From Gemmobacter lutimaris (GTDB lineage Bacteria; Pseudomonadota; Alphaproteobacteria; Rhodobacterales; Rhodobacteraceae), in NCBI RefSeq assembly GCF_003570715.1, contig NZ_QXXQ01000006.1:124001-188000 (forward strand): 64,000 nt of DNA. The letters run 5' to 3'. Below the pieces are notes generated by a model. The model searched no databases, had not been told where the DNA came from, and worked only from the letters and a program-made list of their open reading frames with translations. The stretch's first letter is position 1. Each line of letters starts with the position of its first letter. This document shows positions 30,218 to 47,919 of this stretch, piece after piece. A program made the translations under genes and the position numbers.

Positions 30218-30221
30218 CCCC

Positions 30222-31126: not shown

Positions 31127-31524
31127 GCGTTTCAGAGGGGTTACAAGCTGTTCTGCGAGACCGCCTTGTTTCCGACACCGCTGTCAGCAGCTTTGTCGGA
31201 GAGCGTGTTCTGGACGAGCCGAAAGCGCCGGTGACATTTCCTTATATCACCTTCGGGCCCAGCGATGTGACCCCGGACGATGCGGATTGCATCGCGGCAC
31301 GGATCGAGACCCAGCAGATCGATGTCTGGTCGAATGCGGATGACGGCAAGGCCGAAGCCAAGCGCATATGCGATGCGGTTCGCAAGGCGCTGCATGGGTT
31401 CTCGGCCGAGATGAGCGATGGGGCTTTGGTCGAATCCTATGTGACGCTGGTTCGGGTCATGGGCGACCCGGAGGAAGGTATCAGCCATGGCGTGCTGACC
31501 GTCGAATGCACGGTTGAGGAATAG
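31123..31524 (+). CDS. DUF3168 tail completion protein
   Basis: A 133-residue DUF3168 protein: LVSDTAVSSFVGERVLDEPK, YITFGPSDVTPDDADC, then TQQIDVWSNADDGKAEAKRI. In siphophages it is the tail terminator that caps the tube and joins it to the head. It begins in an ATGA overlap. Confidence 0.9.
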   Translation: MSVSEGLQAVLRDRLVSDTAVSSFVGERVLDEPKAPVTFPYITFGPSDVTPDDADCIAARIETQQIDVWSNADDGKAEAKRICDAVRKALHGFSAEMSDGALVESYVTLVRVMGDPEEGISHGVLTVECTVEE

Positions 31525-31938
31525 GTGGCCGCCGTTTCCCCCGCCTTTCGGCGCCGGCTTCAGAACGTGGTGCCGCAGGTCTCAGCGGCTGTGCGTCCGG
31601 TCCTGATCAAATCGGCCGATGAACTGGTCGCGCTGATGAAACGGCTCTGCCCGGTCGAGGATGGGGATCTGCGCGACAGTATCGGCTGGGCCTGGGGCGA
31701 TGCTCCGCGTGGTGCCGTCGTGATCGACAAGTTGTCCGGGCGCGGCCGCGGCCGGGATCGCATCGTGATCTATGCCGGGAATGCCAAGGCCTATTACGCC
31801 CGCTGGGTCGAATTCGGCACCCGTAAATCCAAGGCGCACCCGTTCTTTTTTCCCGCGTATCGCGCGCTGAAGCGCCGCATCCGCAGCCGGATTTCCCGCG
31901 CGACGCGCAAGGCCCTACGGGAGATCGGCAGTGGATGA
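31525..31938 (+). CDS. HK97 gp10-like tail component
   Basis: A 137-residue protein that starts with GTG immediately after the previous TAG. LCPVEDGDLRDSIGW, YYARWVEFGTRKSKAHPFFF and PAYRALKRRIRSRI are the family signature. Role is in tail or head-tail joining. The C terminus is strongly basic. Confidence 0.88.
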   Translation: MAAVSPAFRRRLQNVVPQVSAAVRPVLIKSADELVALMKRLCPVEDGDLRDSIGWAWGDAPRGAVVIDKLSGRGRGRDRIVIYAGNAKAYYARWVEFGTRKSKAHPFFFPAYRALKRRIRSRISRATRKALREIGSG

Positions 31939-32161
31939 ACGGTGCAGCGTCCGCGCGATCTTCGTAGGCGAGTTTCACTATTCCAGCCGTCGCCGGAATG
32001 CCGGCTGGTCGGCTTATCCATCGCCAGATCCGCAGATGTTTCCGCGCGAATTCATCACCGCCGCGATCAATGCCGGTCGGGCGTTACCCATACCGAAACG
32101 GCGCGGCGGCGGCGTGACGGGCATCACAGCCGCCGTGCCGGTGGCAAAATCAGGAGACTGA
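31931..32161 (+). CDS. Small hypothetical tail-region protein
   Basis: A 76-residue protein read from a GTG at 31931 that overlaps the previous stop by eight bases, with GGGAG upstream. It has an FVGEFHYSSRRRNAGW segment and a basic Gly-rich tail. It ends one base before the tail tube gene. No family recognised. Confidence 0.55.
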   Translation: MDERCSVRAIFVGEFHYSSRRRNAGWSAYPSPDPQMFPREFITAAINAGRALPIPKRRGGGVTGITAAVPVAKSGD

Positions 32162-32162
32162 C

Positions 32163-32606
32163 ATGGCAAAGCCTATCACCCAACGGTTCGACCAGATGGT
32201 GCTGGAGGTGTCGGATGACGGCACCACCTGGCGCAAGCTCTGCGGTATGGTTGGCGTCACCATCACGCGCAGCACCAATATGGACACGTCCGAAGTGCCG
32301 CAGGATTGCGACGACGAAAGCCTGCCGATGGACATCGCCCGCGAGCCGCGGTCGCAGGAGGTCACGGTGTCCGCAACGGGCGTCTGGGCGCAGCAATCGC
32401 ATGAAGAGGTGCTGGACTGGTGGTATGGCGCCGAATCGAAACAGGTGCGCATCGGCAACCTGAATGCGGCGTCGGGCGACACCGAATATGAAAAGGGCCC
32501 GTGCTTTCTGACCAACGTGACCAACCAGCGCACCAAGGGCCAGCGCGTGACCTCGAATATCGAGCTGGCCTTCGATGGCCTGCCGACGCGGACGGTCAAA
32601 GCCTGA
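32163..32606 (+). CDS. Major tail tube protein
   Basis: A 147-residue protein of the TP901-1/GTA tail tube kind: FDQMVLEVSDDGTTWRKLCG, then VTITRSTNMDTSEVPQDCDD and SQEVTVSATGVWAQQSHEE. It would stack into the tail tube. The preceding gene ends one base before it and its own stop overlaps the chaperone start (TGATG). Confidence 0.85.
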   Translation: MAKPITQRFDQMVLEVSDDGTTWRKLCGMVGVTITRSTNMDTSEVPQDCDDESLPMDIAREPRSQEVTVSATGVWAQQSHEEVLDWWYGAESKQVRIGNLNAASGDTEYEKGPCFLTNVTNQRTKGQRVTSNIELAFDGLPTRTVKA

Positions 32607-33013
32607 TGGCGGGGGCGGTTGATCTGGTCTGGCCGGGGGGCGAAAACGCCTTCCGGCTGGGCATCGGCGAGCTTCAGGCCTTGCAGACGGCCACGGGCAT
32701 GGGGCCTGAGCATCTGCTTGGCCTGTTGCAGCTGGGTTCGTGGAAGGTCGAGCAGCTCGAGGCCATTCTGCGCAACGGTCTGATTGGCGGCGGCATGGAA
32801 AAGGCCGAGGCCACACGGCTGATCCGCCAGACGTTTTCGCGCGGGTTCGGCGTGGCACTGTTCAAACCTGCCTGCATCCAGATCATGCAGGCCGCACTCT
32901 ATGGGCCGGAGGATGACCCCGTGGGGGAGTTGTCGGCGGTACCGGAGACGGTGCCGCCCGACTTGAACACGGACGATGGCGCTTCAGCAGCTTCTACCGA
33001 CTTGGCGCCGTGA
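32606..33013 (+). CDS. Tail assembly chaperone (GTA gp10-like)
   Basis: A 135-residue protein (FRLGIGELQALQTATGMGPE, then LRNGLIGGGMEKAEATRLIR). It matches the gene-transfer-agent tail chaperone that wraps the tape measure during assembly. It lies directly after the tube gene and before the small second chaperone. The Pro/Thr-rich C terminus is variable. Confidence 0.85.
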   Translation: MAGAVDLVWPGGENAFRLGIGELQALQTATGMGPEHLLGLLQLGSWKVEQLEAILRNGLIGGGMEKAEATRLIRQTFSRGFGVALFKPACIQIMQAALYGPEDDPVGELSAVPETVPPDLNTDDGASAASTDLAP

Positions 33014-33165
33014 TGGGCTTTGCGCCTGCCGATGTGCAGGCGATGAGCCTTTGGGAGTTTCAGGCCTGTCAGGATGGCTGGTTGCTGCTGCATGGCGGCA
33101 AGAAAGCCTCGGGCGGCGATCTGACCGATGATCAGCTGGCGGAAATGGGGATTGAGGGTTTCTGA
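33013..33165 (+). CDS. Second small tail chaperone
   Basis: A 50-residue protein (MGFAPADVQAMSLWEFQACQ...). It is encoded in TGATG junctions with the chaperone before it and the tape measure after it. The MSLWEFQACQDGW pattern is common in the short chaperone partner of GTA-like phages. In lambda the equivalent product is made by frameshifting; here it is a separate coupled gene. Confidence 0.75.
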   Translation: MGFAPADVQAMSLWEFQACQDGWLLLHGGKKASGGDLTDDQLAEMGIEGF

Positions 33166-36155
33166 TGAATGACATGACGCCTGATCTGGCCATGAACATC
33201 GGCATCAACATGGCGGCCTTGGCAAAGCAGCTTGCCAAGCTTGAAAAAGACACCGTCGATATGGTCAGGGGGATCGAAAAGAAAGCCCAGATCCGCATCG
33301 GCACGAATTCCGCTGCCAAGTCTGCCGAGATTTTCGAGGCCGAGCTTGAGCGTATGCGCAACAAGTTCGACCCGCTCTACGCCGCATCGAAGAGATATGA
33401 GACGCAGCTGGAAGAACTGAACCTCGCGCATCGCATGGGCGTGTTGAACGCCAAGCAGTATGAGCTGGCGCTGGAGCGGCTGGGTCAAGAATACCTTGCG
33501 GCAGACAGCGCCGCTGGCCGTGCTGGCCGTGGGCAAGCTCAGTTCGGGCGGTTTTCCTCGCAGGCCGGGTTGCAGGTTCAGGATTTCTTCGTGCAGGTCA
33601 GCGCTGGCACTTCGGCGGTTCAAGCCTTTTCGCAGCAGGCCCCGCAGTTGCTGGGTCTCTTTGGTGCATGGGGCGCTTGGGCTGGCGCAGCCATCGCAAT
33701 AGGTCTGCCTGCCATCGCGATGCTCACTAAAATGGGTGACGAAACCAAATCGCTGGCTGACCTGACCGATGAATTGCAACAGGCCACCAGCGCGCATGCA
33801 GATGCGGCTGAGGCGGCCAAGGTGTCGATCGAGGATCTGCGCGCGAAATATGGCGATATGGCCGATGAAATCCAGCGGGCGCTGGAGCTTCAGGTGCAGT
33901 TGACCGCCGCGCAGGGTGAGGCTGCCCTGCTAAATGCTGCCAGGGGCGGGGGCGCGCTTCTTGGTCGCGGCATCACTCAGACGCGACCGGCCACGCAGTC
34001 AGACGAGGAATTTGCCGCTTGGCAAGAGGCGAGGCTGCAAAGGCTAATGAATGTCACTGGTGGAACCCGCGAAGAGGCCGAGCGGCTCCAGCGTGCGCTG
34101 CGTATGCTGGAAACCGCCAATGGGCCGGAAGCTGCACATCGTGACGCGATCCGGCTGCGAGATCTTCTGATCGAGATTTCTGGCGGCATCCCGCAGGCAG
34201 TGCAAAAGTTCGGAGATGAATTCGCCATTCTTGGCTCGATCATTGCCGAGTCGGAGCGTCAGATCGAACTCGGCATGTCTGATACCGAACGCCGGGGCGT
34301 TGAACTGGCCGAGGCCTATGACCGCCGCACCCGTGATCTGGCGCGTCTGGCAACGGATCGTGCCGATGCCGAGAAGCAACTCGCGCTGGCGCGTGAGAAG
34401 GGGGATGAGACGGCCATCGCCTCGGCCGAGCGGATGATCGGGACCATCGACGATGAGATCGCGCGCACCCGCGATGTGAAGGCGCGGGTCGAGGATGTCG
34501 GGGAAGAGATGAAGCGGGTCCGCGATCTTGCGGGCAAGGCGGCGCTGAACCCGGAATTCGAGGCACAATACACGGCGCTTCAGAAAGAGGTCGAGCGCGC
34601 CCGTCGCGAGGGCGAAAAACTGGGCGAGGTCGATCTTTCGCGGCTTGAAACCGCCGTGCGCAAGCTGATGGAAATGGCCGGGCTGATGGCCGATGGCTTT
34701 GCGCGGGCGGGCGAAGGCCTGTCGAGCGGTGTGGCGGATGCCTATCGCCAATATGGTGCCTCGCGCCGGGCAGGCGAATGGATGGCTTCCTCGGATGCGA
34801 TGTCGGCGGCGCGTGCCCTTATCGCCGCGAAGGAAGGCTTCAAGCTCGAAGCATACAAGGACGTGAACCATTATCGGGCAGGCTATGGCTCCGATACCGG
34901 CACCCGCGCGGATGGGTCTACTTATTCGATCCAGAAGGGCATGGTGATCAGTGCCGATGATGCGCAGCGCGATCTTGACCGGCGTATCCAGTCCTATTTC
35001 GACACGTTGATCGGCCAGATCGGCCAGACCACGTTTGAGGCCCTGTCAGCCGCGCAGAAAGCCGCTCTGGCCTCGCTGCTGCACAATTACGGCGAGGGGG
35101 AGCTGAAGGCCGGCGGCGATCTGGGCGGCGTATTGTCGGCGCTGCGCGACGGCAACAGTCAGGGTGTGGCCGATGCCATCGCGGCGCGCGCGTCTGACAA
35201 TGCCGGGATCAACCGCTCGCGGCGGCTGGAAGAGGCACAGGCCTTCGGTGGCGCTTCGGGCGCGATGGAGGCGCGGCTGTCAGCCGAGCAGAAGGCCCTG
35301 CAAGAACAGGTCAAGGCGCGAGAGGATCTGACACGGGCACATGATCGGTTTTCGGAAAGCCTGCTGAAGGGCATTGCCGATGCGGAGTTTGAACGGTCCA
35401 TTTTGGGCAAGTCGAAGGAGGATCAGGCCCGGCTGCGCGCAGAATATCTGCTGACCGCACAGGCCAAGCGTGACGGCCTCGATCTGAATGCGCGCCTCGC
35501 CGGATCTGAGATGACGGTGGCGGAAGCGATTCAGGCGAAAGCGAAGGCGGATGCCGAGGCAGCGTTGGCGGCCGAAAAGCGCCGTATTTCCGAGGAACTG
35601 GCGACCCAGCGGCTTCGGCAGGCCGCGCAGGTGCAAAAGCAGTTCGCGGATCAGCTGGTTGACTCCATCGTCGCCGGGCGCGGACTGGACGGCGTGCTGG
35701 CAAACCTTGCTGCGACGCTGGCGAAATCGGCGGTGCAGAACCTCTTGTTCGGATCGGTACAGGCCGGGGTGTCCAGCGGCGGTCTGCTGTCAGGTCTGTT
35801 CAATGTCATCGGAAAGGTGGCCAGCTTTGAGGGTGGTGGCGAAACGCCGTCCGGTGCGCGGTCTGGCGGTCTGGACGGGCGCGGCGGTTTCCTTGCCATG
35901 TTGCACCCGGATGAAACGGTGATTGATCATGTTGCCGGGCGGTCCCGAGTGCCATCTGCGGTGGCCTCGCCTGCGTCGCCTGCGATTTCTGGCGGTGCCG
36001 GGCGGCAGGCGGTTTCACTGCAGGTCATCCCGAGCCCATATTTTGACGTAAGGGTCGGGGCGATCTCCAACGGTGTATCAGTCCAGCACCAGCGCGAGGC
36101 GCAGCGGGCCATGCCTTATACCATGCGAGAAATGCAGGCGCGGGGCACGGTCTGA
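33165..36155 (+). CDS. Tape measure protein with embedded GH24 lysozyme-like domain
   Basis: A 996-residue tail length protein. Coiled-coil segments flank hydrophobic helices near 165-190 (WGAWAGAAIAIGLPAIAML). A lysozyme-like domain spans about 546-695: LIAAKEGFKLEAYKD with Glu557 and Asp566 spaced nine apart exactly as the T4 lysozyme Glu11/Asp20 pair, then GYGSDTGTRADGS. The position of the third catalytic Thr is Arg571 or Ala572. The C terminus holds another hydrophobic region and a Gly-rich tail. The enzyme domain probably helps DNA ejection through peptidoglycan. Confidence 0.92.
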   Translation: MNDMTPDLAMNIGINMAALAKQLAKLEKDTVDMVRGIEKKAQIRIGTNSAAKSAEIFEAELERMRNKFDPLYAASKRYETQLEELNLAHRMGVLNAKQYELALERLGQEYLAADSAAGRAGRGQAQFGRFSSQAGLQVQDFFVQVSAGTSAVQAFSQQAPQLLGLFGAWGAWAGAAIAIGLPAIAMLTKMGDETKSLADLTDELQQATSAHADAAEAAKVSIEDLRAKYGDMADEIQRALELQVQLTAAQGEAALLNAARGGGALLGRGITQTRPATQSDEEFAAWQEARLQRLMNVTGGTREEAERLQRALRMLETANGPEAAHRDAIRLRDLLIEISGGIPQAVQKFGDEFAILGSIIAESERQIELGMSDTERRGVELAEAYDRRTRDLARLATDRADAEKQLALAREKGDETAIASAERMIGTIDDEIARTRDVKARVEDVGEEMKRVRDLAGKAALNPEFEAQYTALQKEVERARREGEKLGEVDLSRLETAVRKLMEMAGLMADGFARAGEGLSSGVADAYRQYGASRRAGEWMASSDAMSAARALIAAKEGFKLEAYKDVNHYRAGYGSDTGTRADGSTYSIQKGMVISADDAQRDLDRRIQSYFDTLIGQIGQTTFEALSAAQKAALASLLHNYGEGELKAGGDLGGVLSALRDGNSQGVADAIAARASDNAGINRSRRLEEAQAFGGASGAMEARLSAEQKALQEQVKAREDLTRAHDRFSESLLKGIADAEFERSILGKSKEDQARLRAEYLLTAQAKRDGLDLNARLAGSEMTVAEAIQAKAKADAEAALAAEKRRISEELATQRLRQAAQVQKQFADQLVDSIVAGRGLDGVLANLAATLAKSAVQNLLFGSVQAGVSSGGLLSGLFNVIGKVASFEGGGETPSGARSGGLDGRGGFLAMLHPDETVIDHVAGRSRVPSAVASPASPAISGGAGRQAVSLQVIPSPYFDVRVGAISNGVSVQHQREAQRAMPYTMREMQARGTV

Positions 36156-36811
36156 TGTTGCGCAATATCATCGACGTGCCGTCACTGTTCATGCCGTGGG
36201 TGCAGGTGGATTGGCGGCCAGACTGGCGCGGGCAATCGACGATGCAGGCCAATGATGGATCGGAGCAGGTTGTCTACAATCGCCTGCCGCGCTTCATCGG
36301 GGCCCCGCAAATTGCCTTGCCGCGTGAAATGGCCGGTCATTGGCGGGCGCTGATCTTGCAGGGGCAGGGGCGGGTCAACGCCTACCGGCTGCGCATGATT
36401 GACCCGATGACCTGTCGCCGGCGTCGGGCGGACTGGCGCGAGGATTGGCGGGCCTATCAGGCCGGGCTTTATGTCGAGGTCAGTCCGCAGGTTGAATGCC
36501 CGGCCGGTGCCGCTGCGGGCGCGACCTCGATCATCGTTGATGAGACCACGGCACCCCGCCCGATCTCTGTCGGGACATACCTCAGCTATGATGACTGGCC
36601 ATTTGCAGTGGTATCCCGATCCGGTTCCGGCGCGTCCGTCACATTGGGTGTCACGATGTTGCGCAAGGCGATTCCGGCGGAGGCGCAGATTGATCTGGTG
36701 GCGCGGGGCCTCTTTGTCTCGACCTCGGACGCCAATGGCCTGCCGAGTTTCGAGCGCGGCCGCCCGGTGGTCGGGATGGATCTCGAATTCGTGGAATGGA
36801 TCACCCGATGA
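36155..36811 (+). CDS. Distal/minor tail protein
   Basis: A 218-residue beta-rich protein directly after the tape measure: MLRNIIDVPSLFMPWVQVDW at the start, then YRLRMIDPMTCRRRRADWRE and a C-terminal FVEWITR. The place matches the distal tail protein that opens the tip complex. No named family is claimed. It overlaps the next gene at ATGA. Confidence 0.7.
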   Translation: MLRNIIDVPSLFMPWVQVDWRPDWRGQSTMQANDGSEQVVYNRLPRFIGAPQIALPREMAGHWRALILQGQGRVNAYRLRMIDPMTCRRRRADWREDWRAYQAGLYVEVSPQVECPAGAAAGATSIIVDETTAPRPISVGTYLSYDDWPFAVVSRSGSGASVTLGVTMLRKAIPAEAQIDLVARGLFVSTSDANGLPSFERGRPVVGMDLEFVEWITR

Positions 36812-37395
36812 GCTTCTTTCCCGTCGGTTTCAACCCGCGCGACCCCTCGGTCGGGCTTCTCGATCTGGTGTCGATCGACACGGTGGATGGGGTATTCCGG
36901 TTCATCTTGGGCGGTGACGGGCGCTTTGTGGATGTGGACGGCCACGCATGGATCGGCTGCCAACTGCTTGAGGCGCCGGATTTGCAGGTGTCGCTGAACG
37001 GCACGGCCCCGGCGGGCTCGATCTCGCTGACCTATATCCCCGACCCGTCCGACGGCGATCTGGTGGCCGAGCTGCGGGCGCTGGGAACGGAATACATCCT
37101 CGACCGCGAGATTGTGTTCTGGGTGCAGCCCATCGGGGCGATGGCCGAGTTTCACGCCCCGGTGCATGCGCCGATCCGCTGGTTGACCCGCAAGGGCGCC
37201 AGCGTGGCGTTCGATCTGTCGGGTCCGATGGAGCGGCGGATCACGCTCAATTTCGAGAGCATCGGCGCGGGCCGCAACACCGCGTCGCGGCTGACCAACA
37301 CCACGAATGATCACGCGGCGCTGATCGGGGAGGCGAATAGCTCCTTGCGCTTCGCCCCGACTGATACCTTTCAGGAACAGAAGCTGTTCGGATGA
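36808..37395 (+). CDS. Tail tip protein, GTA-like
   Basis: A 195-residue protein (VGLLDLVSIDTVDGVFRFIL, then ISLTYIPDPSDGDLVAELRA). It stands in the place of GTA gp13-type proteins, between the distal tail protein and the peptidase. The start at 36808 overlaps the previous stop; an ATG at 36796 is possible. Function within the tip is inferred from order. Confidence 0.7.
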   Translation: MSFFPVGFNPRDPSVGLLDLVSIDTVDGVFRFILGGDGRFVDVDGHAWIGCQLLEAPDLQVSLNGTAPAGSISLTYIPDPSDGDLVAELRALGTEYILDREIVFWVQPIGAMAEFHAPVHAPIRWLTRKGASVAFDLSGPMERRITLNFESIGAGRNTASRLTNTTNDHAALIGEANSSLRFAPTDTFQEQKLFG

Positions 37396-37808
37396 CCCCA
37401 CTCTATGTCGAGCTGAACCGCTGGCGGAGGCTGACATACCGCTGGGGCGAGGCGGATTGCGTCACGCTCTGCGCCGATTGGTGTGCGCGCTGCGGCTGGC
37501 CCGATCCGGCTGCCGATCTGCGCCTGACTTATGAAAGCATGTCCGAATGCCAGCGCGTCACGCGGTTTTTCTCGGACCCGCTGGCGGTGGTGGCGCCGCG
37601 CATGGCGGCGGCGGGGCTGGCCCTGACTGCGCAGCCGGTGGCCGGTGACGTGGGTATTGTGCTTCAGATCGCGCCGGGCGTGACGCGGCCCCATGCGGCG
37701 CTGTGCCTGGGCGAGACATGGGCGGTGAAAGAGACCTCGGGCGCGGTGACGGCGTTCCGCCCGCAGAAGGTGCTTGCAGCTTGGGGAGTGGGCTATGCGC
37801 ATCCGTAA
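37392..37808 (+). CDS. NlpC/P60-like tail peptidase
   Basis: A 138-residue protein with RWGEADCVTLCADW, where the Cys at about 23 is the likely nucleophile. A PHAALCLGETWAV segment holds the likely His. This is the compact papain-like fold of phage tail peptidases (DUF6950-like). It would cut peptide stems during infection. Order (tip protein, peptidase, hub) is that of the gene transfer agent. It overlaps the hub gene by 14 bases. Confidence 0.82.
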   Translation: MTPLYVELNRWRRLTYRWGEADCVTLCADWCARCGWPDPAADLRLTYESMSECQRVTRFFSDPLAVVAPRMAAAGLALTAQPVAGDVGIVLQIAPGVTRPHAALCLGETWAVKETSGAVTAFRPQKVLAAWGVGYAHP

Positions 37809-40533
37809 TCTCGCGCTGGCCGCGCTGCTGTCCACAACCTGTCTGGCGGGGCAAGCCAAGGCCGATCCGGTCACCGCCTTTATCGGCGGGTTTCTGAACG
37901 CAGCGGGCTTTGGCACCTATCTGGCGACGGGCGCAGTTGGTGCTTGGAGCGCGGGTTTCACCGCCGGTTCATGGCTCGCGGGCGGATCGCTGTTGTCGCG
38001 TGTGGTGCTGTCCGTTGGCCTGTCGGCGCTGTCGCAAGCGTTGATGCCCACGCCCTCGGTCCCGTCGCCCTCCGACCGGCAGGTCAACTGGGCGCAGCCT
38101 GTCAGCTACCAAGAGCGCGTCTATGGCCGGGTGCGAAAGGGCGGGCCGTTCTGCTTCTCGGCCGCGAGCCGGGCCGATGTCACCAACCCGGACGGGACCG
38201 ATGATCGGTTCAAAAGGCATTATGGCATCTTGATCGCTGCGCACAGCACGCGCGGGCCGGTGCAGCACTTTCTTGACAAGCGCCCGGTCGAGTTGGAGGG
38301 CGATTTCGTCTCGACCGAACCGATCTGGTATGACGGCAAGGGGCGGTGGGCGTGGCATGGCTCTATCCGCACCTATACCGGCCAGCCGGGGCAGGCGGTC
38401 GATCCGATATGGGATGCGGTTTTCCCGGAGGTTACCGCTGCCGATGATTTCAAGGGGCTGAGCTACGCCGCGCTTTACGCCGCCCGGCCACCGAACAACG
38501 TGTTTTCGAAGATCTACCCGAGCGGGCGGGAATGGGTTTATGCGCCGGTCTGGGATGGCTGCGATACGGTCTATGACCCGCGCGTGGGCGATGACACGCT
38601 GCGCTGGAACTACTGCCTGCGGTCCGAGGATTTCGGGCATGCGGTATGGTCCAAGGCGGCGGTGACGGTCACGACGGATGGGGCTGCCGCGCCGGGTGGC
38701 GCGCTGACTGCTGATCTTGTTGTGCCGACGACGGCAAACTCGTCTCACTATGTGCTGCAATCCATCACGCTCGACCCGTCAACCGATCATGTCGTCAGCG
38801 TCTATGCCAAGGCCGCCGCGCGGGACCGGCTGCGCATCCAGTGCGGCACGGGCAGCGGGTGGTCGGCGTCCACGCTGGCCGATTTTAACCTGACAGCGGG
38901 GACCGCCACCGCGACGGCGGGACTGACGCCGCAAATCGAGGGTGTCGGCGGCGGCTGGTATCGCTGTAGCGTGCGGGCAACGACCAACGCCAGCACCGGC
39001 AGCCGGTCCTTCCTGTTGCTGCTGATGTCGCCGACCGGGGCGCAGACCTATGCTGGCGACGGATCGTCGGGGATGCTGCTTTGGGGGGCGCAGGTCGAGG
39101 CCGGGGCAGAGGTATCGACCTACAAGCCGACGGAAGGCGCGGCGGTGTCGGCGATCTGGGGCCGGGGCTGGACCGACAATGCCGCCCTGATCATTGCCGA
39201 TGTGGCCGAGCTCTATGGCTTCGCTGTCGATTGGGATGAGGTCGCGGCCGAGGCGGACATCTGCGACCAACTGGTGACAAACCGCGACGGCGGCACCCAG
39301 CGGCGCTGGACGATCAACATGGTGATCGACAGCAGCATGACTTGGGAACAAGTCAGGTCCGAGATGATGAAGGCTTGCGACGCGTTCTTTTATGAACGGC
39401 GCGACGGCAAGCTGGGCTTCAAGGTGGGCTATTACAGCGCGCCGACCGTCACGCTGACCGATGCGGATTTCCTGTCCATCTCGATCCGCGACCGGGCGTG
39501 GGGCTCGGATGTGATAGGGCAGGTCGCCGTGAAATACGTCGAACCGGCGCTGGATTATCAAGAGGAACTCACCGGCGCGGTGGTGGCCGATGCGCAGGGT
39601 GACCGCCACGAAGAACCCTGCGGGGCGATCAACAGCCACAATCAAGCGTGGCGCGTGGGCTATCGCTGGCTGGCGACGGCGCGGCCGCCCTATTCGGTCA
39701 GCGGCACCATCGGACCCATCGGATATGAATGCATGGAACAGCGGTTCCTGCGCATCACCCATGCCGAGGCCGGGTTTGATGAAGTGGTCGAGGTGTCGCG
39801 GCTGACGCGCAACGGCGGGTCGCACACCTTTTCGCTGGATGTGGTTTCGGTTGATGCGGGCGATTTCGCCCCAGACGCGCTGACGCTGGAGCCTGCCCGC
39901 CCGCTGCGCGCGGTGGTGGCCGAGGAAGATGATGTGGCGGCCCCGGCCAGCCTGACGGGCGAGGCGGTCGAGGGCACGGGCGGTGTGGCGCTGATCGAAT
40001 GGGCGTGGCCGGTGCAGCCCGAGGATCTGCGCCAGCAGCTGCAAATACGGTCGGTCGATGGCGGCGTGCCAGACTGGCAGATCGTGGATGCGGGGGAGGG
40101 GCAATCCTCCCTTGTCTCGACCGGGCTTGTCGATGGCGCCACCTATGAGGCGCAGGTGCGCAACCGGACGCCGGGCGGGCGGGTCTCGCCCTGGTATCCT
40201 GCCGTGCCGCTGGCGGTGCAGGCGGTGGCGAACAGCGCGGCCCCGGCGGCGCTGGTGGCCTTCGGCGCTGCGGTGTCCGGGTCTGACGCTGTGCTGACCT
40301 TCACCGCGCCCAATGACGGGCAATATGCCGCGACGCGGATCTGGCGCGCGGACGGGTCAACAGATTTCGGCGATGCGGTGGCGATCCGCACAGAGTTCGG
40401 CGCGCCGAATGCGGCGGACAGCTATACAGACGTGGGGCCCGGTGTCGGGTCGCACAGCTACTGGGCCGAGCCGATCAATGGCAGCGGCATCGCGGGGCCG
40501 CGCAGCGGGCCGCAGACGATCACCATCATCTAA
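37795..40533 (+). CDS. Tail hub/host-specificity protein with inserted binding module and FN3-like end
   Basis: A 912-residue baseplate hub. An N-terminal hydrophobic and Gly-rich part (1-80) leads into the hub core. At about 270-450 a jelly-roll-like module (starting NYCLRSEDFGHAVW, ending WGAQVEAGAEVSTYKPT) interrupts the core between VYDPRVGDDTLRW and WTDNAALIIADV, segments normally joined in relatives. The core then resumes (DWDEVAAEADICDQ). About 720-910 looks like fibronectin type III repeats. GGGAGTG precedes the ATG at 37795. The insert resembles a module in the protein at 44361-45707. Confidence 0.85.
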   Translation: MRIRNLALAALLSTTCLAGQAKADPVTAFIGGFLNAAGFGTYLATGAVGAWSAGFTAGSWLAGGSLLSRVVLSVGLSALSQALMPTPSVPSPSDRQVNWAQPVSYQERVYGRVRKGGPFCFSAASRADVTNPDGTDDRFKRHYGILIAAHSTRGPVQHFLDKRPVELEGDFVSTEPIWYDGKGRWAWHGSIRTYTGQPGQAVDPIWDAVFPEVTAADDFKGLSYAALYAARPPNNVFSKIYPSGREWVYAPVWDGCDTVYDPRVGDDTLRWNYCLRSEDFGHAVWSKAAVTVTTDGAAAPGGALTADLVVPTTANSSHYVLQSITLDPSTDHVVSVYAKAAARDRLRIQCGTGSGWSASTLADFNLTAGTATATAGLTPQIEGVGGGWYRCSVRATTNASTGSRSFLLLLMSPTGAQTYAGDGSSGMLLWGAQVEAGAEVSTYKPTEGAAVSAIWGRGWTDNAALIIADVAELYGFAVDWDEVAAEADICDQLVTNRDGGTQRRWTINMVIDSSMTWEQVRSEMMKACDAFFYERRDGKLGFKVGYYSAPTVTLTDADFLSISIRDRAWGSDVIGQVAVKYVEPALDYQEELTGAVVADAQGDRHEEPCGAINSHNQAWRVGYRWLATARPPYSVSGTIGPIGYECMEQRFLRITHAEAGFDEVVEVSRLTRNGGSHTFSLDVVSVDAGDFAPDALTLEPARPLRAVVAEEDDVAAPASLTGEAVEGTGGVALIEWAWPVQPEDLRQQLQIRSVDGGVPDWQIVDAGEGQSSLVSTGLVDGATYEAQVRNRTPGGRVSPWYPAVPLAVQAVANSAAPAALVAFGAAVSGSDAVLTFTAPNDGQYAATRIWRADGSTDFGDAVAIRTEFGAPNAADSYTDVGPGVGSHSYWAEPINGSGIAGPRSGPQTITII

Positions 40534-40542
40534 GAGGGTCAC

Positions 40543-41175
40543 ATGGCAACAACTGTCGCCGGTCCCGTCCGCTTGCCGGACGGGTCGCAGCCCGCGCATG
40601 GCCGGGTGCTGTTCACACCGCGCGCGCCGATTGTCGGCTCGCCCGTGGTCACCACCAGCCCGGTCGCGGCCACGATCACGGCAGGCGCGATCAGCATCGA
40701 CCTGCAAGGCGCGGCCGATGGCAGCCGCTATGCCGTGGCGGTGGAGCATTGGAGCGCGGTCGAGGGCCGCCTGCTGACCACCGATCTGCCCGACATTGTG
40801 GTGACGGACAGCGGATCGGTCACGATTGCCGATGCGGTGGCACTGGACGTGCCGGAGGGGCCGCAGGAACACCGGATCAAGCGGGGCGATTCCCTGAGCC
40901 TCGGCTGCATCTATGCCGATGCTCTGGGTCGCCCGAAATCCCTGACAGGGATCACCGTCACCTCGGCCTTGGGCGGCCCGGACGGCGTGACGCGGGCGCT
41001 GATCGTGACCGTCCTCGATGCGGCAGCCGGGCAGTTCGAGGTGACGCTGGCGCCCGCGCAGACGGCCGCCCTGCCGCTGGGTGCCCATGCCTGGGACATG
41101 AAATTCGCGGTTGGCGGTCGGGTCTACCGCACGATCACCGATACCATCCACATTGATCAGGAGGTCACGCCGTGA
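40543..41175 (+). CDS. Tail protein with BppU-like C-terminal domain
   Basis: A 210-residue protein. The N-terminal half is beta-rich (LPDGSQPAHGRVLFTPRAPI). The C-terminal half (HRIKRGDSLSLGCIYADALG, then GAHAWDMKFAVGGRVYRTIT) matches the Ig-like BppU pattern of baseplate proteins that hold receptor-binding fibres. It lies between the hub and the esterase fibre and ends in a GTGA overlap with the fibre. Confidence 0.75.
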   Translation: MATTVAGPVRLPDGSQPAHGRVLFTPRAPIVGSPVVTTSPVAATITAGAISIDLQGAADGSRYAVAVEHWSAVEGRLLTTDLPDIVVTDSGSVTIADAVALDVPEGPQEHRIKRGDSLSLGCIYADALGRPKSLTGITVTSALGGPDGVTRALIVTVLDAAAGQFEVTLAPAQTAALPLGAHAWDMKFAVGGRVYRTITDTIHIDQEVTP

Positions 41176-44081
41176 CGGATCGCGTTGTCACTTTTCGCAA
41201 TGGCACCCTGCCAACCGGCGGTGTGTCGCCCGGAGATCTGGCGGCCGAGGCGGCGGCGCGGGAAGCTGCGGATGATGCTGAAGTTACCGCCCGCGAGGCG
41301 GCGGAAAACCTCGGCTCAATCCTGCGGCTGACCGGATCGACCGGCACGGCGCAGGAAGTTACAGCGACGGTCGGCACGGCTCAACTGCACATTGGGATGG
41401 AAATCGGCCAACGAATGCAGGCGCGATGGCTGGAGAACAACACCGGACCCGGCGCGAAGCTGATCGTCAGCCGGGACGGTGTCGAGACCGAATGCACCAT
41501 CAAGCGTCGCAACGGTGCCGACCTCGCCGCCAATGATTTGCTTGGATCTGCTCGCTACGACTTCGTTGTCCACTCTGTGGACCCATACGTTGTGCGGGTC
41601 GTGGGCGCTGTGGCGAAGGATGACATCAACGGCCTGCCCGAGGCGCTGGATGATGCGTTTCAGGATGCGGCCGAGGCCATGAACGCCGCGATGGATGCGC
41701 AGGACACAGCCGACAGTGCGGTGGCTGCGGCTTCTGCGGCGCAGACGGCGGCGGATGATGCGCAGGCGACTGCGGATGCGGCGTTGCAGGATGCAGCCGA
41801 GGCTACCAATGACCTGATCGACCTCGAAGCGTTGCTGGATGACGGTGCAAAGCTGCCTGCGACCAAGCTGCTCGGCATTGTCCGCTCGGGCGAAAACCCT
41901 GCGACGGTCCTTGCCGCCTACGGTGCCGTGCAGCCGTATGTCTGGTTTGAGCGGCTTGATGGCAGCTATCGCATCTGGGGTGCGGTTGCTGACGGCGCTC
42001 CGGGATCGACGCAATACGGCACGCGCTGGTATGCTCCGCGAGCGGTTCTTTCCGATGATATTGCGGCGCAGATCGCTGCCAGATTGATCGCTGCAAACAA
42101 CCTGTCCGACCTGGCGGACAAGGCGCTCGCGCGCGAAAATCTCTCTGTCTACAGCAGGGCGTCCGTCGATCTTTTGCTGACTGACAAGGCCAGCGCCACC
42201 GCGTTTCAGCAGTTCGTCACGCGGGTTCTGGGGGCGCTCACCGGGCTGGCCTATCGCGTGGTGCCGTATACTGTCAGCCCTTACGACGGGGCGATCAAGA
42301 TCGCCGCCGACGAAATCAGCTATCCACAACTGTGGGTGACCACGCCTGACGACTTGGCGGCGCTGGTGCCTGGAGACGAAGGGCCGTTTCTTGTCAGCGG
42401 TGCAATCCTGACGTTCCCGACGAAAGACGATCCGCTGGGGACCACGCGGACTTACTTTGTTGATATGGCGGCAAGCCCCCGCGTGGTCACGTCCGAGGTG
42501 GGGATCGCCGTCAACTACTCGAAAGATCGTCTGATCCTCGGTGTGGCGCACCGCGGCTGGTATGTCGATATGGCGAACCTGCCGGTGACGTGGGCACTGC
42601 TGCCGACCGAATCCGACCCTGTGATCATGTTCGACCGGGCGACGCTGCGGACCGAGGCCTTGCAGCTCGCCGTGGCTGCGCTGCCCGTGCCGGATGATGT
42701 CGTCGGCGGGCCTGCGTGGGTGACGGCCGCCGCTGGCCCGATCCAGATCGGCGGTCCCATGCGGTCGCAGACTGTGGTCCTGCAAGCTGCCGGGGTGAAG
42801 GCCGATTGCAGCCATATGACGGTTGCGAGTGATGCGGTGCTGAATTTCGTGGCAGGCGGCACGGTGTTCGCGGGTCACGGGCGGACCTTTGCGGGGCAGG
42901 CCGGGATGCACACCGCAACTGTCCCGGCGGGCGGGCTGGTTCGCGTCACGCGGATCTCGGCCAATGCGACCTTCGGCACCGTGATCGAACCGCTGGGCGG
43001 GACCGTGCTGTCTTATGCGGGCGGGGCCGAGCCGGTGCATGATGTGTCGATCGCGCTGGGTGGTCAAAGCCAGTTGTCGCTGGGCTATTATCGCGGCCTT
43101 CCGGGTTCATTTGCGCATGCTGTCCGCGACGCGGGCTGGATGGCCACGCCGCTGGATGTTGATGCGCACTGGATCAATGGCGCCACCGGCGGCTCCTCGA
43201 TGCTGGTCACGCCGAACAACTGGTGGACGGTTGGCAATACCGAAGGGCCCGCGCTGACGGCGTGGAAAGCGGCCGTTACCGCCGCCGATGCGGCTGGGCA
43301 GCCGGTGCCGGAATGCGTGATCTGGATGCAGGGCGAGGCCGATGCCTGGGTTGTGCAGCAAGGCACCTATTCCAGCACTGTCTATAAAGACGCGATCAAA
43401 AGCGTCTGGTCGGCAATGCGGTCGCATCTGACCAGCCTCGGGGCCAGCGATCCGCAGTTCCTCGTGGTGCAGCTCGGGGCATGGGATTTTGAGGGCGACG
43501 ACTATCCGACCGGCGCCAGCGCAGTGCGGTGGGCCTATCAGCGGGCCATCGACGAAGTGGCCTATGCGCATTTCGCGGCCGATTCCTACGACATCCCGCG
43601 CCCTTGGGGGGATGTGCATCTGGGCGGTATGGGGCATTACCATCTGGCCCATCGTCTCGCGCGCGCTTATGCCAACGTGATCGAGGGGCAGGCCAATAGC
43701 CTCGGGCCGCAGATCACCGGGGCGACATGGCGTTCGGCCACTGATTTCCGCGCCGCTGTTGTGGGCCTGCCGTCCGGGCTGCACTTGCCACCGGGCGACA
43801 TGGGCGACGTGGCATCTGGCCCTTATCCTTGGGGTTTCCAGATCCTGAGCGGGGCCAACATGACGGTCGAAGTGCCGATCATTCGCGGCATCCTCGACCG
43901 CGTGTCGCGCACCGTGACGCTGGAAACCAACACAAACCTTTCGGGCTGCCGCGTGGCGTTCCCGGCGGGTTTTGCAACCGACCAGCGCGCCGGCCACCTC
44001 ATCCGCGACGAACAGGCGCACGGCCGCCTGATGGGCCTGCCGCTGCGCTCGGGCATGTCCGCCGCTCTCATCGCTCCCTGA
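41172..44081 (+). CDS. Tail fibre with SGNH-type esterase domain
   Basis: A 969-residue fibre read from a GTG preceded by AGGAGG. Residues 15-50 and 155-220 are Ala-rich helices typical of trimeric coiled-coil shafts. From about 620 to 850 lies an SGNH/sialate esterase-like domain: LGGQSQLS with Ser633, WMQGEAD at 718-724, and GDVHLGGMGH with Asp814 and His816. Such domains remove acetyl groups from surface sugars. The C-terminal 100 residues form a separate beta domain. It probably binds and trims host polysaccharide at adsorption. Confidence 0.85.
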   Translation: MTDRVVTFRNGTLPTGGVSPGDLAAEAAAREAADDAEVTAREAAENLGSILRLTGSTGTAQEVTATVGTAQLHIGMEIGQRMQARWLENNTGPGAKLIVSRDGVETECTIKRRNGADLAANDLLGSARYDFVVHSVDPYVVRVVGAVAKDDINGLPEALDDAFQDAAEAMNAAMDAQDTADSAVAAASAAQTAADDAQATADAALQDAAEATNDLIDLEALLDDGAKLPATKLLGIVRSGENPATVLAAYGAVQPYVWFERLDGSYRIWGAVADGAPGSTQYGTRWYAPRAVLSDDIAAQIAARLIAANNLSDLADKALARENLSVYSRASVDLLLTDKASATAFQQFVTRVLGALTGLAYRVVPYTVSPYDGAIKIAADEISYPQLWVTTPDDLAALVPGDEGPFLVSGAILTFPTKDDPLGTTRTYFVDMAASPRVVTSEVGIAVNYSKDRLILGVAHRGWYVDMANLPVTWALLPTESDPVIMFDRATLRTEALQLAVAALPVPDDVVGGPAWVTAAAGPIQIGGPMRSQTVVLQAAGVKADCSHMTVASDAVLNFVAGGTVFAGHGRTFAGQAGMHTATVPAGGLVRVTRISANATFGTVIEPLGGTVLSYAGGAEPVHDVSIALGGQSQLSLGYYRGLPGSFAHAVRDAGWMATPLDVDAHWINGATGGSSMLVTPNNWWTVGNTEGPALTAWKAAVTAADAAGQPVPECVIWMQGEADAWVVQQGTYSSTVYKDAIKSVWSAMRSHLTSLGASDPQFLVVQLGAWDFEGDDYPTGASAVRWAYQRAIDEVAYAHFAADSYDIPRPWGDVHLGGMGHYHLAHRLARAYANVIEGQANSLGPQITGATWRSATDFRAAVVGLPSGLHLPPGDMGDVASGPYPWGFQILSGANMTVEVPIIRGILDRVSRTVTLETNTNLSGCRVAFPAGFATDQRAGHLIRDEQAHGRLMGLPLRSGMSAALIAP

Positions 44082-44097
44082 TCATAAGGAGGCCGTA

Positions 44098-44361
44098 ATG
44101 GCTGATGCATTCCTCTACAACACGTCGGGCCTCGAAAGCCCGGCGTCCAATGCCGCGGCGATCACGCCCTCGGATAGCGTGGACCTCGCCAATGTCCCTC
44201 GCGCGCTTTATGCGCTGACCGACGGCACCGTACGGGTGACGATGCGCGGGGGCGGATCGCCCGTCACCGTCCAGATGATCGCGGGTGTCCCGCTGCCGTT
44301 TCGGGTGACGCGCGTCTGGGCCACCGGCACCACCGCCACCGGGATCGTGGGGGTCTGGTGA
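44098..44361 (+). CDS. Spike base protein of the RCAP_rcc01079 (GTA) kind
   Basis: An 87-residue protein (ITPSDSVDLANVPRALYALT, then LPFRVTRVWATGTTATGIVG). It matches the small GTA spike base protein pattern of Rhodobacterales. It likely joins a head or tail spike to the particle. AAGGAGG precedes the ATG. Its stop overlaps the next start (TGATG). Confidence 0.75.
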   Translation: MADAFLYNTSGLESPASNAAAITPSDSVDLANVPRALYALTDGTVRVTMRGGGSPVTVQMIAGVPLPFRVTRVWATGTTATGIVGVW

Positions 44362-45707
44362 TGCTGGGAGTCGGTTACGGCATTGCCTCGCCCGCGCTCT
44401 GGGCCGCGCGGTGGTCTCCCGGCCTTGTCTACGGCCCGTCCGGGCAGGGTGCACTGTTTCGCGCAAACCGTTTTGACACGCTGTTTCAGGACGCGGCAGG
44501 CACGATCCCTGTCAACGCACCCGGCCAGCCTGTGGGCCTCATCCGCGACCTGAGCGGGCGCGGCAATCACGCAAGTCAGGCCGTCGCATTGAGCCGACCG
44601 ATCCTCGCACGGCATCCAGCGAGCGGGTTGCGGCAGTTGCTGAGCAACAGCACTGATCTGACGGCGTGGGGTGGTAGTGCTGGCGTGGCGCTGCATCAGA
44701 CGCTGGCGTCTGGCGAACTGGTCTACGAGATCAGCGATAACGATTCCGCCGTCAACCACTCGCGCAGTCTGTCGGTTAATCTTACCTCGGGCCAATCATA
44801 CTGTTTTTCTGCACGGGTCCGGGCCGGGTCCGCCGAAAAGACCCAGATATCATGTCAAACACCTGGATCGTCTGCGGGCGTAGTCGTCACATGGTCTGGT
44901 GGCGCACCGTCATCTGTTGTCACTAATGGGCCGCAGACAGGCGCAGTGAGTTGCGATCCAGATCCGGTCAATGCCGGGTATTACATACTGCGTGGTGTAT
45001 TGAACGCGGCTGTTAGCGGATTGCACACCATGTATCTTTGGCCGTCTGCATACGAGGCCAGTGGTCTAACGACCGGAACCAGCTATTTTAGCTCGCCCCA
45101 GATCGAGACCGGGACCGTGCGCACCGGGTATCAGGCGGCCACCTCCACCTATGATGTGTCCGAGGCGGGGTATGGCAGCGTCTGGGGGCTGCGGACGAAT
45201 GGCATCAATCAATGGCTGGAGATTGCAGCATTTGCATCTGGTTCGGCAGGCAGGACCATTGTCGCGGCGATCAGAAAACGAAGTGATGTGGCGCGTGGGA
45301 CTGTCATCGAGCACAGGCCGAATTTCTCGCGCCCGGGTGGTATTGGACTGTTCGCGCCAGCAGCGGATGGCGCGGCGTCCTACGGCGTCAATGTTTATCC
45401 GGCCTCATCAGGCTCGGCAATATCTAGCGGCTATCCAGCACTAACGGATTGTATCGTAACGGCAGTGGCCCAAAACGGATCGTGCATCATGCGCATCAAT
45501 GGCGCGCAGGTAGCGTCGGCGACGCTGGCCGGAGGTGACTGGGTGACATTTAACGCGGGCATGACTATCGGCGCGCGGGACGGATCCAGTCTGTTCGGCG
45601 ATCTGATGATCTACGGTCTGCTCTATATCGACCGACCGCTGGCAGCCGCCGAATATGCCCGCGCTGAACAATACATGGCCCGCCTCGCAGGAGTGACCCT
45701 CGCATGA
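44361..45707 (+). CDS. Tail/spike protein with lectin-like modules
   Basis: A 448-residue protein. The N-terminal part has LFQDAAGTIPVNAPGQPVG and LIRDLSGRGNHASQAV, a motif of phage tail and spike proteins. The middle (about 95-270) is a jelly-roll module like the hub insert, beginning QLLSNSTDLTAWGG and ending SSPQIETGTVRTGYQAATST. The C-terminal 170 residues look like a LamG/concanavalin fold. It is coupled to the spike base gene, so it is probably the spike itself, binding host glycans. Confidence 0.7.
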   Translation: MLGVGYGIASPALWAARWSPGLVYGPSGQGALFRANRFDTLFQDAAGTIPVNAPGQPVGLIRDLSGRGNHASQAVALSRPILARHPASGLRQLLSNSTDLTAWGGSAGVALHQTLASGELVYEISDNDSAVNHSRSLSVNLTSGQSYCFSARVRAGSAEKTQISCQTPGSSAGVVVTWSGGAPSSVVTNGPQTGAVSCDPDPVNAGYYILRGVLNAAVSGLHTMYLWPSAYEASGLTTGTSYFSSPQIETGTVRTGYQAATSTYDVSEAGYGSVWGLRTNGINQWLEIAAFASGSAGRTIVAAIRKRSDVARGTVIEHRPNFSRPGGIGLFAPAADGAASYGVNVYPASSGSAISSGYPALTDCIVTAVAQNGSCIMRINGAQVASATLAGGDWVTFNAGMTIGARDGSSLFGDLMIYGLLYIDRPLAAAEYARAEQYMARLAGVTLA

Positions 45708-46084
45708 TTACCATCACCATCGCATGCCCCGAGGCGCTGATCGCGGACGCCAACCAACTCGCGCGCTGCATCGGCTACGGCCCCGACGACGACCAGACCT
45801 ATGGCGCGGCATCGTGGCAGGATGCGGGCGGCAACCGTTATGCTGTGGCCTCCGGGCCGGTCGGCGCGGCGTTTCCACAGGCCGCCGCCTCGCTGCTGGC
45901 ATCCCCGCAATGGGGTGCCGACATGGCCGCCGCCGCACGCGCGCAAGCCGCAATCCGCATCTGGACCGAGGATCAGCCCATCACCGCATCGCCGGACCAC
46001 ATCGCGGTGGTGATCGGTGACGATGCCCGCGCCGCGCTGGCGGGGCTGGGGGTGACGCAGGTGCCGGAGGAGGCAGAGGCGTGA
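45704..46084 (+). CDS. Hypothetical virion-associated protein
   Basis: A 126-residue Ala-rich alpha/beta protein (MITITIACPEALIADANQLA...). It overlaps the spike gene start-stop at ATGA and the next gene at GTGA. Similar small proteins follow spike genes in Rhodobacterales phages; function unknown. Confidence 0.65.
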   Translation: MITITIACPEALIADANQLARCIGYGPDDDQTYGAASWQDAGGNRYAVASGPVGAAFPQAAASLLASPQWGADMAAAARAQAAIRIWTEDQPITASPDHIAVVIGDDARAALAGLGVTQVPEEAEA

Positions 46085-46356
46085 CCGTCCAGTTTGACAA
46101 CAAAATCAGCCTCGGCCACGTCATCAGCATCGTGACCGTGCTGGCCGCCTGCATCATGGGTTACGCCACGCTGTCAGCCCGGCAGGAGCGTCTGTCGCTG
46201 GACGTGCTGGCGATGCAGCGTGCGGCCGAGGCGAGGGAGAGTCGCATACGCGCGGTCGAGATCGCACAGGCCAGCCAATCCAGCGACCTGCGCAGCATCC
46301 AGATCGGTATCAGCAGGATCGAGGCACAGCTCGAAAAGCTGCAACCGAAACCCTGA
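46081..46356 (+). CDS. Small single-span membrane protein with coiled coil
   Basis: A 91-residue protein started by GTG. Residues 11-29 (LGHVISIVTVLAACIMGYA) form one membrane span and the rest is a helical coiled coil (RIRAVEIAQASQSSDLRSIQ, then ISRIEAQLEKL). It lies just before the amidase, so a spanin-like or holin-like lysis role is possible. A terminator follows it. Confidence 0.65.
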   Translation: MTVQFDNKISLGHVISIVTVLAACIMGYATLSARQERLSLDVLAMQRAAEARESRIRAVEIAQASQSSDLRSIQIGISRIEAQLEKLQPKP

Positions 46357-46359
46357 CCC

Positions 46360-46381
46360 GCCCGCTGCGCGCGGGCTTTTT
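46360..46381 (+). terminator. Terminator before the amidase
   Basis: GCCCGC (46360-46365) pairs with GCGGGC (46371-46376), with five T residues after it. It sits four bases after the previous stop and 15 bases before the amidase ATG. Confidence 0.7.
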
Positions 46382-46395
46382 CATGGAGCAACATC

Positions 46396-47013
46396 ATGGC
46401 AGACGAAAACATCCGGTCCATCCAGACCGGGCTGGCAGGGGTTGGTTATTCGCCGGGCCCCATTGACGGGATCGACGGCCCGCGCACCCGTGCGACGGCT
46501 GTGCGCTGGGGGCAGGGCGCCCCGGTTGCCGCGCGGGACGTGGCGCCGGTCACCACCTCGATGATCTACCAAGGCAGCGCGCGGTATCCAGTGCGCGAGG
46601 TGATCGTGCATTGCAGCGCGACGCGGCCCGAGTGGATGGATGGCGACGGGATCGACGCGCAGGTGGCCGAGATCCGGCGCTGGCACAAGGCACAGGGCTG
46701 GCGTGACATCGGCTATCACTGGGTGCTGGGTCGGTCGGGTGAGCTGCGCGCGGGCCGCCGCGAAACCGAAATTGGTGCGCATGTGATGGGTCGGAATAAC
46801 GGCACAATCGGCATTTGCCTGATCGGTGGTTTCGGCTCGGCCGAGACGGATCGGCCCGAGGTGCATTTCACCGACCGCCAGCTGGTGCAGTTGCGCAACC
46901 AGATCGAGGCCATCTCCATGCGCACTCAGATCACCACAGTTTCCGGGCACAACCAGTATGCCGCCAAGGCATGCCCCGGTTTCCACGTCCCCACCTGGTT
47001 CAAAGGAGCCTAA
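46396..47013 (+). CDS. N-acetylmuramoyl-L-alanine amidase endolysin
   Basis: A 205-residue endolysin. Residues 1-40 resemble a peptidoglycan-binding repeat (IRSIQTGLAGVGYSPGPIDG). An amidase_2 domain follows with VIVHCSATRP (zinc His), GWRDIGYHWVLGRSGEL, and GHNQYAAKACPGFHVP (zinc His and Cys-Pro). It would cut the glycan-peptide bond for host lysis. A holin-like gene follows within three bases. No signal peptide is seen, so export depends on the holin. Confidence 0.92.
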   Translation: MADENIRSIQTGLAGVGYSPGPIDGIDGPRTRATAVRWGQGAPVAARDVAPVTTSMIYQGSARYPVREVIVHCSATRPEWMDGDGIDAQVAEIRRWHKAQGWRDIGYHWVLGRSGELRAGRRETEIGAHVMGRNNGTIGICLIGGFGSAETDRPEVHFTDRQLVQLRNQIEAISMRTQITTVSGHNQYAAKACPGFHVPTWFKGA

Positions 47014-47015
47014 TC

Positions 47016-47192
47016 ATGCAGACCGAAATCGCCCGTCTCGCCCGCCATGCCCTGCCGCCTGCGCTGGCCTATGCCGTCGCAAAGGGGTGGATTCCGGCGG
47101 ACCTGCAACAGCCGATCATCGAGGCCGCGCTTGCCGTGGGCGCCGTGCTTGCAGCGCTTTGGGCCAGCCGCCAGCGCGACAAGGCACGGTGA
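47016..47192 (+). CDS. Holin-like small membrane protein
   Basis: A 58-residue protein with a strong ribosome site (AGGAG). The first half is amphipathic and the span IIEAALAVGAVLAALWAS is followed by a basic tail RQRDKAR. Size, position directly after the endolysin and charge distribution fit a holin. This is the last gene of the late operon. Confidence 0.75.
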   Translation: MQTEIARLARHALPPALAYAVAKGWIPADLQQPIIEAALAVGAVLAALWASRQRDKAR

Positions 47193-47508
47193 CGGGTTCT
47201 TGAAATGAAACGCCCCGCCGATCTTGGGGGGATGGCGGGGCGTTGCGCGCTCTATGAGCAGCGCGGGCAGTTTTGGGGTTGGAAAACATGCAGCGTCGGC
47301 GGGGCGAATGACACAGAATGAAGTTCCAATCGAAAAGCATAGCCTGTTGCCTTCGCGGCCGAGCCCGGAGAAGAGGCACCGTTACGAGTGGGTATACGCT
47401 TTGCCGACATGCTCAATAATTCGACGGTATAAAGCTGGGTGTCGTGAACGGAGAGATGTCTGAGCGGAATATGTCAGTTTCATATCCGGTTGTTATGGCA
47501 GAATAATA
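47193..47508. other. Intergenic end of the phage late region
   Basis: This 316-base stretch holds an 11-bp perfect hairpin (AACGCCCCGCC at 47209-47219 with GGCGGGGCGTT at 47234-47244) without T tract, which probably ends the late transcript. The remainder falls in GC content toward the cargo genes. A 51-codon frame at 47308-47463 is open but unconvincing. Confidence 0.5.
47209..47244 (+). terminator. Probable end-of-operon hairpin after the holin
   Basis: An 11-bp perfect stem with a 14-base loop lies 16 bases after the holin stop. No T run follows, so termination efficiency is unclear. Confidence 0.5.
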
Positions 47509-47748: not shown

Positions 47749-47919
47749 TTTTCGACTTTCTGTGCAGTTTCTGCCATGCTGGAAAAACATGCAGCCAACC
47801 TATGGAAATGTGGCAGGAAATAGCATGAGCGCGCTGACGCAGATCAGCATGTTGCCCTTCTTTTTCTGAACAAAATCGGTTGTGAGCAGACAACTGCCGC
47901 GTAGCTCGAAGGAATGTCC

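Follow-up and report, generated by a model that had tools for sequence, protein, structure and literature searches.

A module of the GTA head-spike fibre family inserted into the predicted tail-tip hub of a Gemmobacter lutimaris prophage

The window analysed here is a 64,000-nucleotide stretch of the Gemmobacter lutimaris genome, taken from a continuous contig of 248.5 kb. It holds a prophage with integrase, primase, terminase, portal, head protease and major head genes. A 46-bp direct repeat was found at 9075-9120, in a tRNA-Val gene whose 3′ part it includes, and again at 51548-51593; the two copies, spaced about 42.5 kb, are likely the attachment sites of the prophage. The features discussed below are listed in Table 1.

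Table 1 Positions of the prophage, the parts of its hub gene and its putative head-spike genes in the window.
Feature	Position	Strand	Evidence
Prophage holding the hub and spike genes	9075..51593	.	46-bp direct repeat at both ends, integrase
Integrase	9627-10637	-	Inside prophage
Hub, N-terminal part, ending ...VYDPR	37774..38583	+	phrog_5616 match 48-270; model pLDDT; 96.8% identity to L003/L004
Inserted GTA_spike_fiber (NF048003) jelly-roll module with junction residues, hub residues 271-465	38584..39168	+	NF048003, Rcc01080, empty site, model
Hub, C-terminal part: central/HDIV-type domain, then two FN3 domains	39169..40530	+	PF13550, phrog_5616, phrog_31, Foldseek/VIA
Head-spike base protein (Rcc01079 family)	44098..44361	+	NF048002 E 2e-32; PDB 6tb9_E3 E 4.2e-14
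Probable head-spike fibre, N-terminal part, hydrophobic-Gly repeat MLGVGYGI	44358..44633	+	Likeness to Rcc01080 capsid anchor by eye; conserved in L003
Probable head-spike fibre, exchangeable central module, divergent relative of hub module	44634..45149	+	NF048003 3.7e-7; hhalign; intermediate copy
Probable head-spike fibre, C-terminal LamG-like part	45150..45704	+	Laminin_G_3 hint, E 0.052; alignable in C6 fibre and L003

A single open frame of 919 residues (37774-40533, + strand) is, judged from its modelled structure, the central tail-tip hub of a siphophage-type prophage and has the fold of the J / pb3 / megatron class. Its N-terminal part consists of signal-like/iris helices followed by an adhesin-like/HDII-type domain. 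Both ends of the protein matched one tail family, phrog_5616 (4.4e-66 for the C-terminal part), but the coverage ran to profile position 218 and resumed at 239 with 195 protein residues in between. The C-terminal part also matched phrog_31, central tail fiber J (2.6e-17), and PF13550, the latter with 23.4 bits, barely over the cut-off of 23. The full-length model had a mean pLDDT of 81.2 and a pTM of 0.62; the two hub halves were confident (pLDDT about 90 for most of residues 111-270), and the module between them was of low confidence (pLDDT blocks 31-80), its orientation not being fixed by the model. In a Foldseek search with this model, tail-tip chains of T1 and lambda took ranks 1-4 and those of T5 and DT57C ranks 5-6, and JBD30 was also among the first matches. 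By VIA-align, the best match was 6tba_8A of the RcGTA virion (Z 23.7, rmsd 3.2, 360 aligned, 17% identity), followed by Sf11 and by 8gtc_M of roseophage R4C (Z 21.6, rmsd 7.9, 532 aligned). We take 6tba_8A and 8gtc_M to be megatrons from their residue numbering and the papers rather than from entry titles. A profile search of the hub protein showed that the TIM-barrel peripheral domain PF13547 is absent, and the protein is thus not a megatron of the RcGTA type; likewise, hub sequence profiles gave no match to the genome's own GTA megatron. GTA_TIM (PF13547, megatron) genes are found at two other places of the genome (L210 on contig C11 and L211 on C53), which suggests that it has two GTA-type tail clusters.

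The hub gene was compared at the nucleotide level with L003, an IMG/VR contig whose hub has an empty site. The two agree in all of the 44 bases that lead up to 38583, identity begins again from 39168, and between these junctions the window has 584 bases and L003 has 14. The added unit therefore comprises 195 residues (271-465) replacing a 5-residue linker in frame, and the frame is open across both junctions. The earlier note had proposed a hub core split after VYDPRVGDDTLRW (38569-38607) and resumed at WTDNAALIIADV (39169-39204), with an inserted segment running from NYCLRSEDF (from 38608) to VSTYKPT (to 39132). All of these peptides are present and the insert itself held, but its limits did not: the L003 comparison gave a wider unit, which includes VGDDTLRW ahead of that segment and EGAAVSAIWGRG behind it. 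The site is also empty in L004, which is alike L003 there, and in L002. The N- and C-terminal hub flanks are 96.8% and 94.3% identical to those of the window in L003/L004, and 88.5% and 95.6% identical in L002. Empty hubs were further observed in Paracoccus phage Pben1 and Rhodobacter phage RcapNL. These results confirmed that the domain insertion is real; it looks recent and has good precedents in kind.

The inserted module was then assigned to a family. NCBIfam NF048003 (GTA_spike_fiber) matched hub residues 278-459 with E 2.9e-36 and 125.7 bits, well above its curated cut-off of 36 bits and over nearly the full profile (7-179 of 182), which places the module in this family. The nearest PDB sequence was the RcGTA head-spike fibre Rcc01080 (residues 88-269, E 6.4e-28). 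When the module was modelled alone with 61 relatives, a 13-strand jelly-roll was obtained (pLDDT 90.2, pTM 0.87). Tail fibres of two Pseudomonas phages matched it best, that of Pa193 with a Z of 21.3 and an rmsd of 3.1 (186 aligned) and that of E217 with a Z of 19.0 and an rmsd of 4.3 (189 aligned). The next matches were CBM16, CBM61, CBM4 and CBM22 with Z of about 11-13. Weaker jelly-roll matches extended to proteins that are unrelated or not concerned with sugars, among them insecticidal Cry toxins and components of clostridial toxins; therefore, the fold by itself is no proof of sugar binding. NF048003 is a broad family whose name does not fix a function. It is common in phage fibre proteins, as the IMG/VR scan gave 161 related loci (best 80 used), and matches were found in 5 of 14 control genomes, 3 of them over the cut-off. 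Among the best 80 of the 161 loci, the nearest kin of the hub module was L030 with 41-44% identity. phrog_34853, considered as a hub with the insert, was rejected since it matches the module alone.

The distribution of the insert was investigated in hub relatives from three sources: phage records, 73 IMG/VR loci, and genomes that share the genus, family, order or class of the host. Among 85 distinct hub ORFs (108 loci), the insert was found in two, namely that of the window with its identical copies and that of the IMG/VR contig L129. It was absent from 79, including those with flanks 94-97% identical. A segment native to the hub in all relatives, which the earlier note had named as refuting its reading, was therefore not found. 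The remaining four were left uncalled, two of which (L204 and L206) look empty by eye. The insert of L129 lies at this site too, its junctions resembling those of the window's insert (GDD...N.CL.S.D and SA[IV]WGR), and the two modules are 34% identical, against 63% for the hub core. In a first examination of module-bearing ORFs, both hub halves occurred only in copies of the window's gene; L129 was found later. Scans seeded with the L129 module and with the spike module gave matches only in their own source contigs. Hub-type proteins with the module family near the C-terminal end were seen in L021 (Synechococcus phage Sc-Yong805-1) and L023 (Rhizobium phage P106B), where the module lies far downstream of the hub part.

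The shared site and junctions of L129 raise the question of whether the module was ancestral in this hub lineage, by one old gain, and was lost several times in relatives. A tree built from 72 hub cores requires two changes to account for both carriers, and a clade of the window plus L129 was rejected (p-AU 1.2e-5), which fits two gains or cassette exchange. The motif DPR-x5-[WYF]xxN occurs at the site in 65 of the 85 hub ORFs, and empty hubs retain a 5-residue linker whose pattern is common to far relatives, which speaks against deletion because ragged deletions would not restore it. The module trees were based on 101 rows, those below 50% identity to each other out of 134, and most rows came from the hub-module-seeded search (best 80 of 161 loci), so that nearness to the hub copy is favoured in them. 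FastTree separated the window and L129 hub modules, but under a better model the two fell into a weak five-row group (SH-aLRT 87), and an AU test on 48 of the 101 rows did not reject their pairing (p 0.838). Taken together, an ancestral module with repeated loss seems rather unlikely, and insertion into a hub with a short linker is the reading we follow below.

We next considered which part of the hub the module occupies. The VIA match of the hub model to 6tba_8A runs from model residue 93 (chain 53) to model residue 710 (chain 984). Carrying these offsets inward places model residue 271 near chain residue 231 and model residue 466 near chain residue 740. According to the consulted parts of the published RcGTA description, the adhesin-like domain of the megatron spans 47-229, its peripheral domain 230-744 and its central domain 745-984. 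Judged from the end points of the alignment, the hub module thus appears to occupy the place of the megatron peripheral domain. The R4C megatron is likewise a Rhodobacteraceae siphophage hub with an accessory CBM-like domain that is absent from the RcGTA homologue, as far as the consulted sections of PMC10276861 describe it. There, the extra domain (482-629) lies inside a peripheral domain (212-903) and is likened to CtCBM11; its likeness to the window module is one of description. Unlike that of R4C, the window hub lacks a peripheral domain, and its slot is taken up by the module alone.

Similar arrangements have been described for evolved Dit and evolved Tal proteins, in which, according to the parts of PMC7291167 consulted, CBMs are carried in the structural core of tail-tip proteins and are variably present within a phage group, as in the window hub. 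The structural hallmark of these proteins, a CBM-like fold inserted between two hub halves, was also found here. They differ in that their hosts are Gram-positive and their hub class is another one, and the window module, of the GTA_spike_fiber family, can be set beside the BppA-type CBM of that source by description. The best solved match of the module was the tail fibre gp46 of E217/Pa193 (chain residues 182-396/400, 25% identity). In gp46, the domain lies in a side fibre of a contractile-tail phage, whereas in the window it lies in the central hub.

From these comparisons, we consider it fairly probable that a hub of the J/pb3/megatron class gained, in place of a 5-residue linker, a self-folding CBM-like module likely to bind a host glycan. 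The 195-residue unit would have replaced the linker between the HDII-type and HDIV-type domains in frame and, by folding on its own, would have left the hub still able to assemble. Judged from relatives, three hub copies may be present per tail tip, each presumably exposing one module near the tip. The module might then bind a host surface glycan, probably the capsule, to the presumed benefit of the phage, and its grip could add to the binding by the probable head-spike fibre, itself equipped with a distantly related module, and by a further fibre. The latter is a tail-fibre protein encoded at 41172-44081; its residues 647-834 match a SASA carbohydrate-esterase domain, as would suit a host coated in glycan. 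By analogy with the following systems, the hub module would provide a low-affinity hold on glycans at the tail tip. In the sections of PMC10218006 available, the tagged RcGTA head-spike fibre bound capsulated wild-type cells, with about 4% binding on a capsule-less mutant, and the RcGTA tail fibre also bound capsule. In the consulted parts of PMC7291167, Dit/Tal CBMs recognise the host that the main receptor-binding protein also binds, with lower affinity in the case of evolved Dits.

The module could instead be a structural or docking element, for example for a neighbouring fibre, that binds no sugar. Jelly-rolls are common scaffolds, and in the RcGTA and R4C megatrons the region near the slot adjoins fibre-binding parts, as described in the portions of those reports consulted. 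However, very close hubs without the module keep the next gene, of 210 residues, almost unchanged. Moreover, the nearest solved relatives are in tail fibres binding the hosts of O-antigen phages, and the E217 fibre is annotated with carbohydrate-binding domains. We therefore regard a purely docking role as improbable and retain glycan binding as the preferred function.

The origin proposed by the earlier note, a transfer of the module between the hub and a spike gene of the same phage, was evaluated after the identity of that spike. The ORF at 44098-44361 belongs to the head-spike base family NF048002 (E 2e-32, 111.3 bits against a cut-off of 28, profile 1-85 of 85) and overlaps the start of the spike ORF (44358-45707). 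The latter begins with (V/M)MLGVGYGIASP, which looks by eye like the RcGTA anchor IALGLGLGL. In RcGTA, the head spike is a base pentamer with one fibre held by this anchor, fibre residues 2-10, according to the consulted text of PMC7296036. Because a head-spike base gene precedes it and its N terminus is anchor-like, the spike is most likely a capsid head-spike fibre and not a tail spike. The order of base and then fibre gene is the GhsA-GhsB order (Rcc01079 and Rcc01080) of RcGTA. In RcGTA, the module is on the capsid, whereas the copy of the window matching it best lies inside the tail hub. The RcGTA fibre is resolved at residues 2-10 only, and the fold of the module is not known from RcGTA itself. 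In L003, the spike fibre (16367-17716) is alike that of the window in its first 92 residues and its end; its middle module differs and gave no NF048003 match. A second base-fibre pair, L212 on contig C6, was identified in the same genome, and its fibre carries a clear NF048003 module.

The peptides bounding the spike module in the earlier note, QLLSNSTDL (from 44634) and GYQAATST (to 45149), are present. Direct BLASTP of the hub module against the spike module gave no match at E<=100, and a plain local alignment brought the two out of register with a score reached by 14 of 500 shuffles. The NF048003 profile matched the spike ORF at residues 94-263 (E 3.7e-7) with 30.8 bits, or 35.2 in the genome search, against the cut-off of 36; by its sequence, the spike module is a divergent relative and not a member of NF048003. 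An hhalign comparison, with a module profile built without the spike, was colinear to spike residues 93-262 (E 1.4e-4, probability 53%, 16% identity). Furthermore, the C6 fibre bridges the two as a third copy, with 35% identity to the spike ORF (E 5e-56) and 31% to the hub module (E 2e-12). Since the NF048003 profile, hhalign and the intermediate copy agree, the two modules can be regarded as homologues; judged by these comparisons, the relationship is real but remote and the fold is probably the same. The second refuting result named in the earlier note, different folds of the two modules, was thus not found at the level of sequence homology. The claimed resemblance thus survives as homology, but not as closeness.

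The divergence between the modules, at 16% identity, excludes recent copying between the two genes. Third-position GC differs as well (0.815 in the hub module versus 0.616 in the spike module), the closest kin of the hub module among the best 80 of the 161 loci are in other phages, and the spike module sits on a very long tree branch (3.78). An AU test on 48 of the 101 rows did not reject the hub-spike pair (p 0.535), and an old exchange may have taken place. Nevertheless, we judge it very improbable that the module was copied between the spike and hub genes of this phage, and the module transfer suggested earlier was not borne out. An assembly chimera has almost no likelihood, since both junctions are in open frame on a continuous 248.5-kb contig and L129 independently has the same architecture, even though the 100% copy L001 may be the same isolate.

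In the open-access literature searched, no paper describing an insertion of this kind in the J-type hubs of the group was found. As far as these searches go, the module family in this hub class, its presence or absence among near-identical hubs, and a head-spike relative in the same prophage are new. It is conceivable, although we hold it only tentatively, that accessory domains generally dock at the HDII-type/HDIV-type joint of such hubs, a slot left empty in most of those compared, taken by a TIM-barrel peripheral domain in GTA megatrons, and taken in the window and in L129 by a capsule-binding module of the head-spike type. One module family would then serve at both virion ends and be passed between phages as a cassette with its junctions. 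The present case points to one hub joint as a place where tail-tip hubs take up accessory domains. It also offers a natural pair with and without the module, in hubs 94-97% identical in their flanks and from one host group. With this pair, one can ask directly whether a single accessory glycan-binding domain on the tail tip alters host range or adsorption, and whether binding parts are common to head spikes and tail tips.

Two further observations were made in the course of these comparisons. In L134, L136 and L191, the hub N-terminal part is about 250-280 residues long, against about 160-180 in most others, and perhaps contains further insertions elsewhere. In the window, residues 556-673 of the tape-measure-like protein (33165-36155) form a Phage_lysozyme domain (PF00959, E 3.1e-7).
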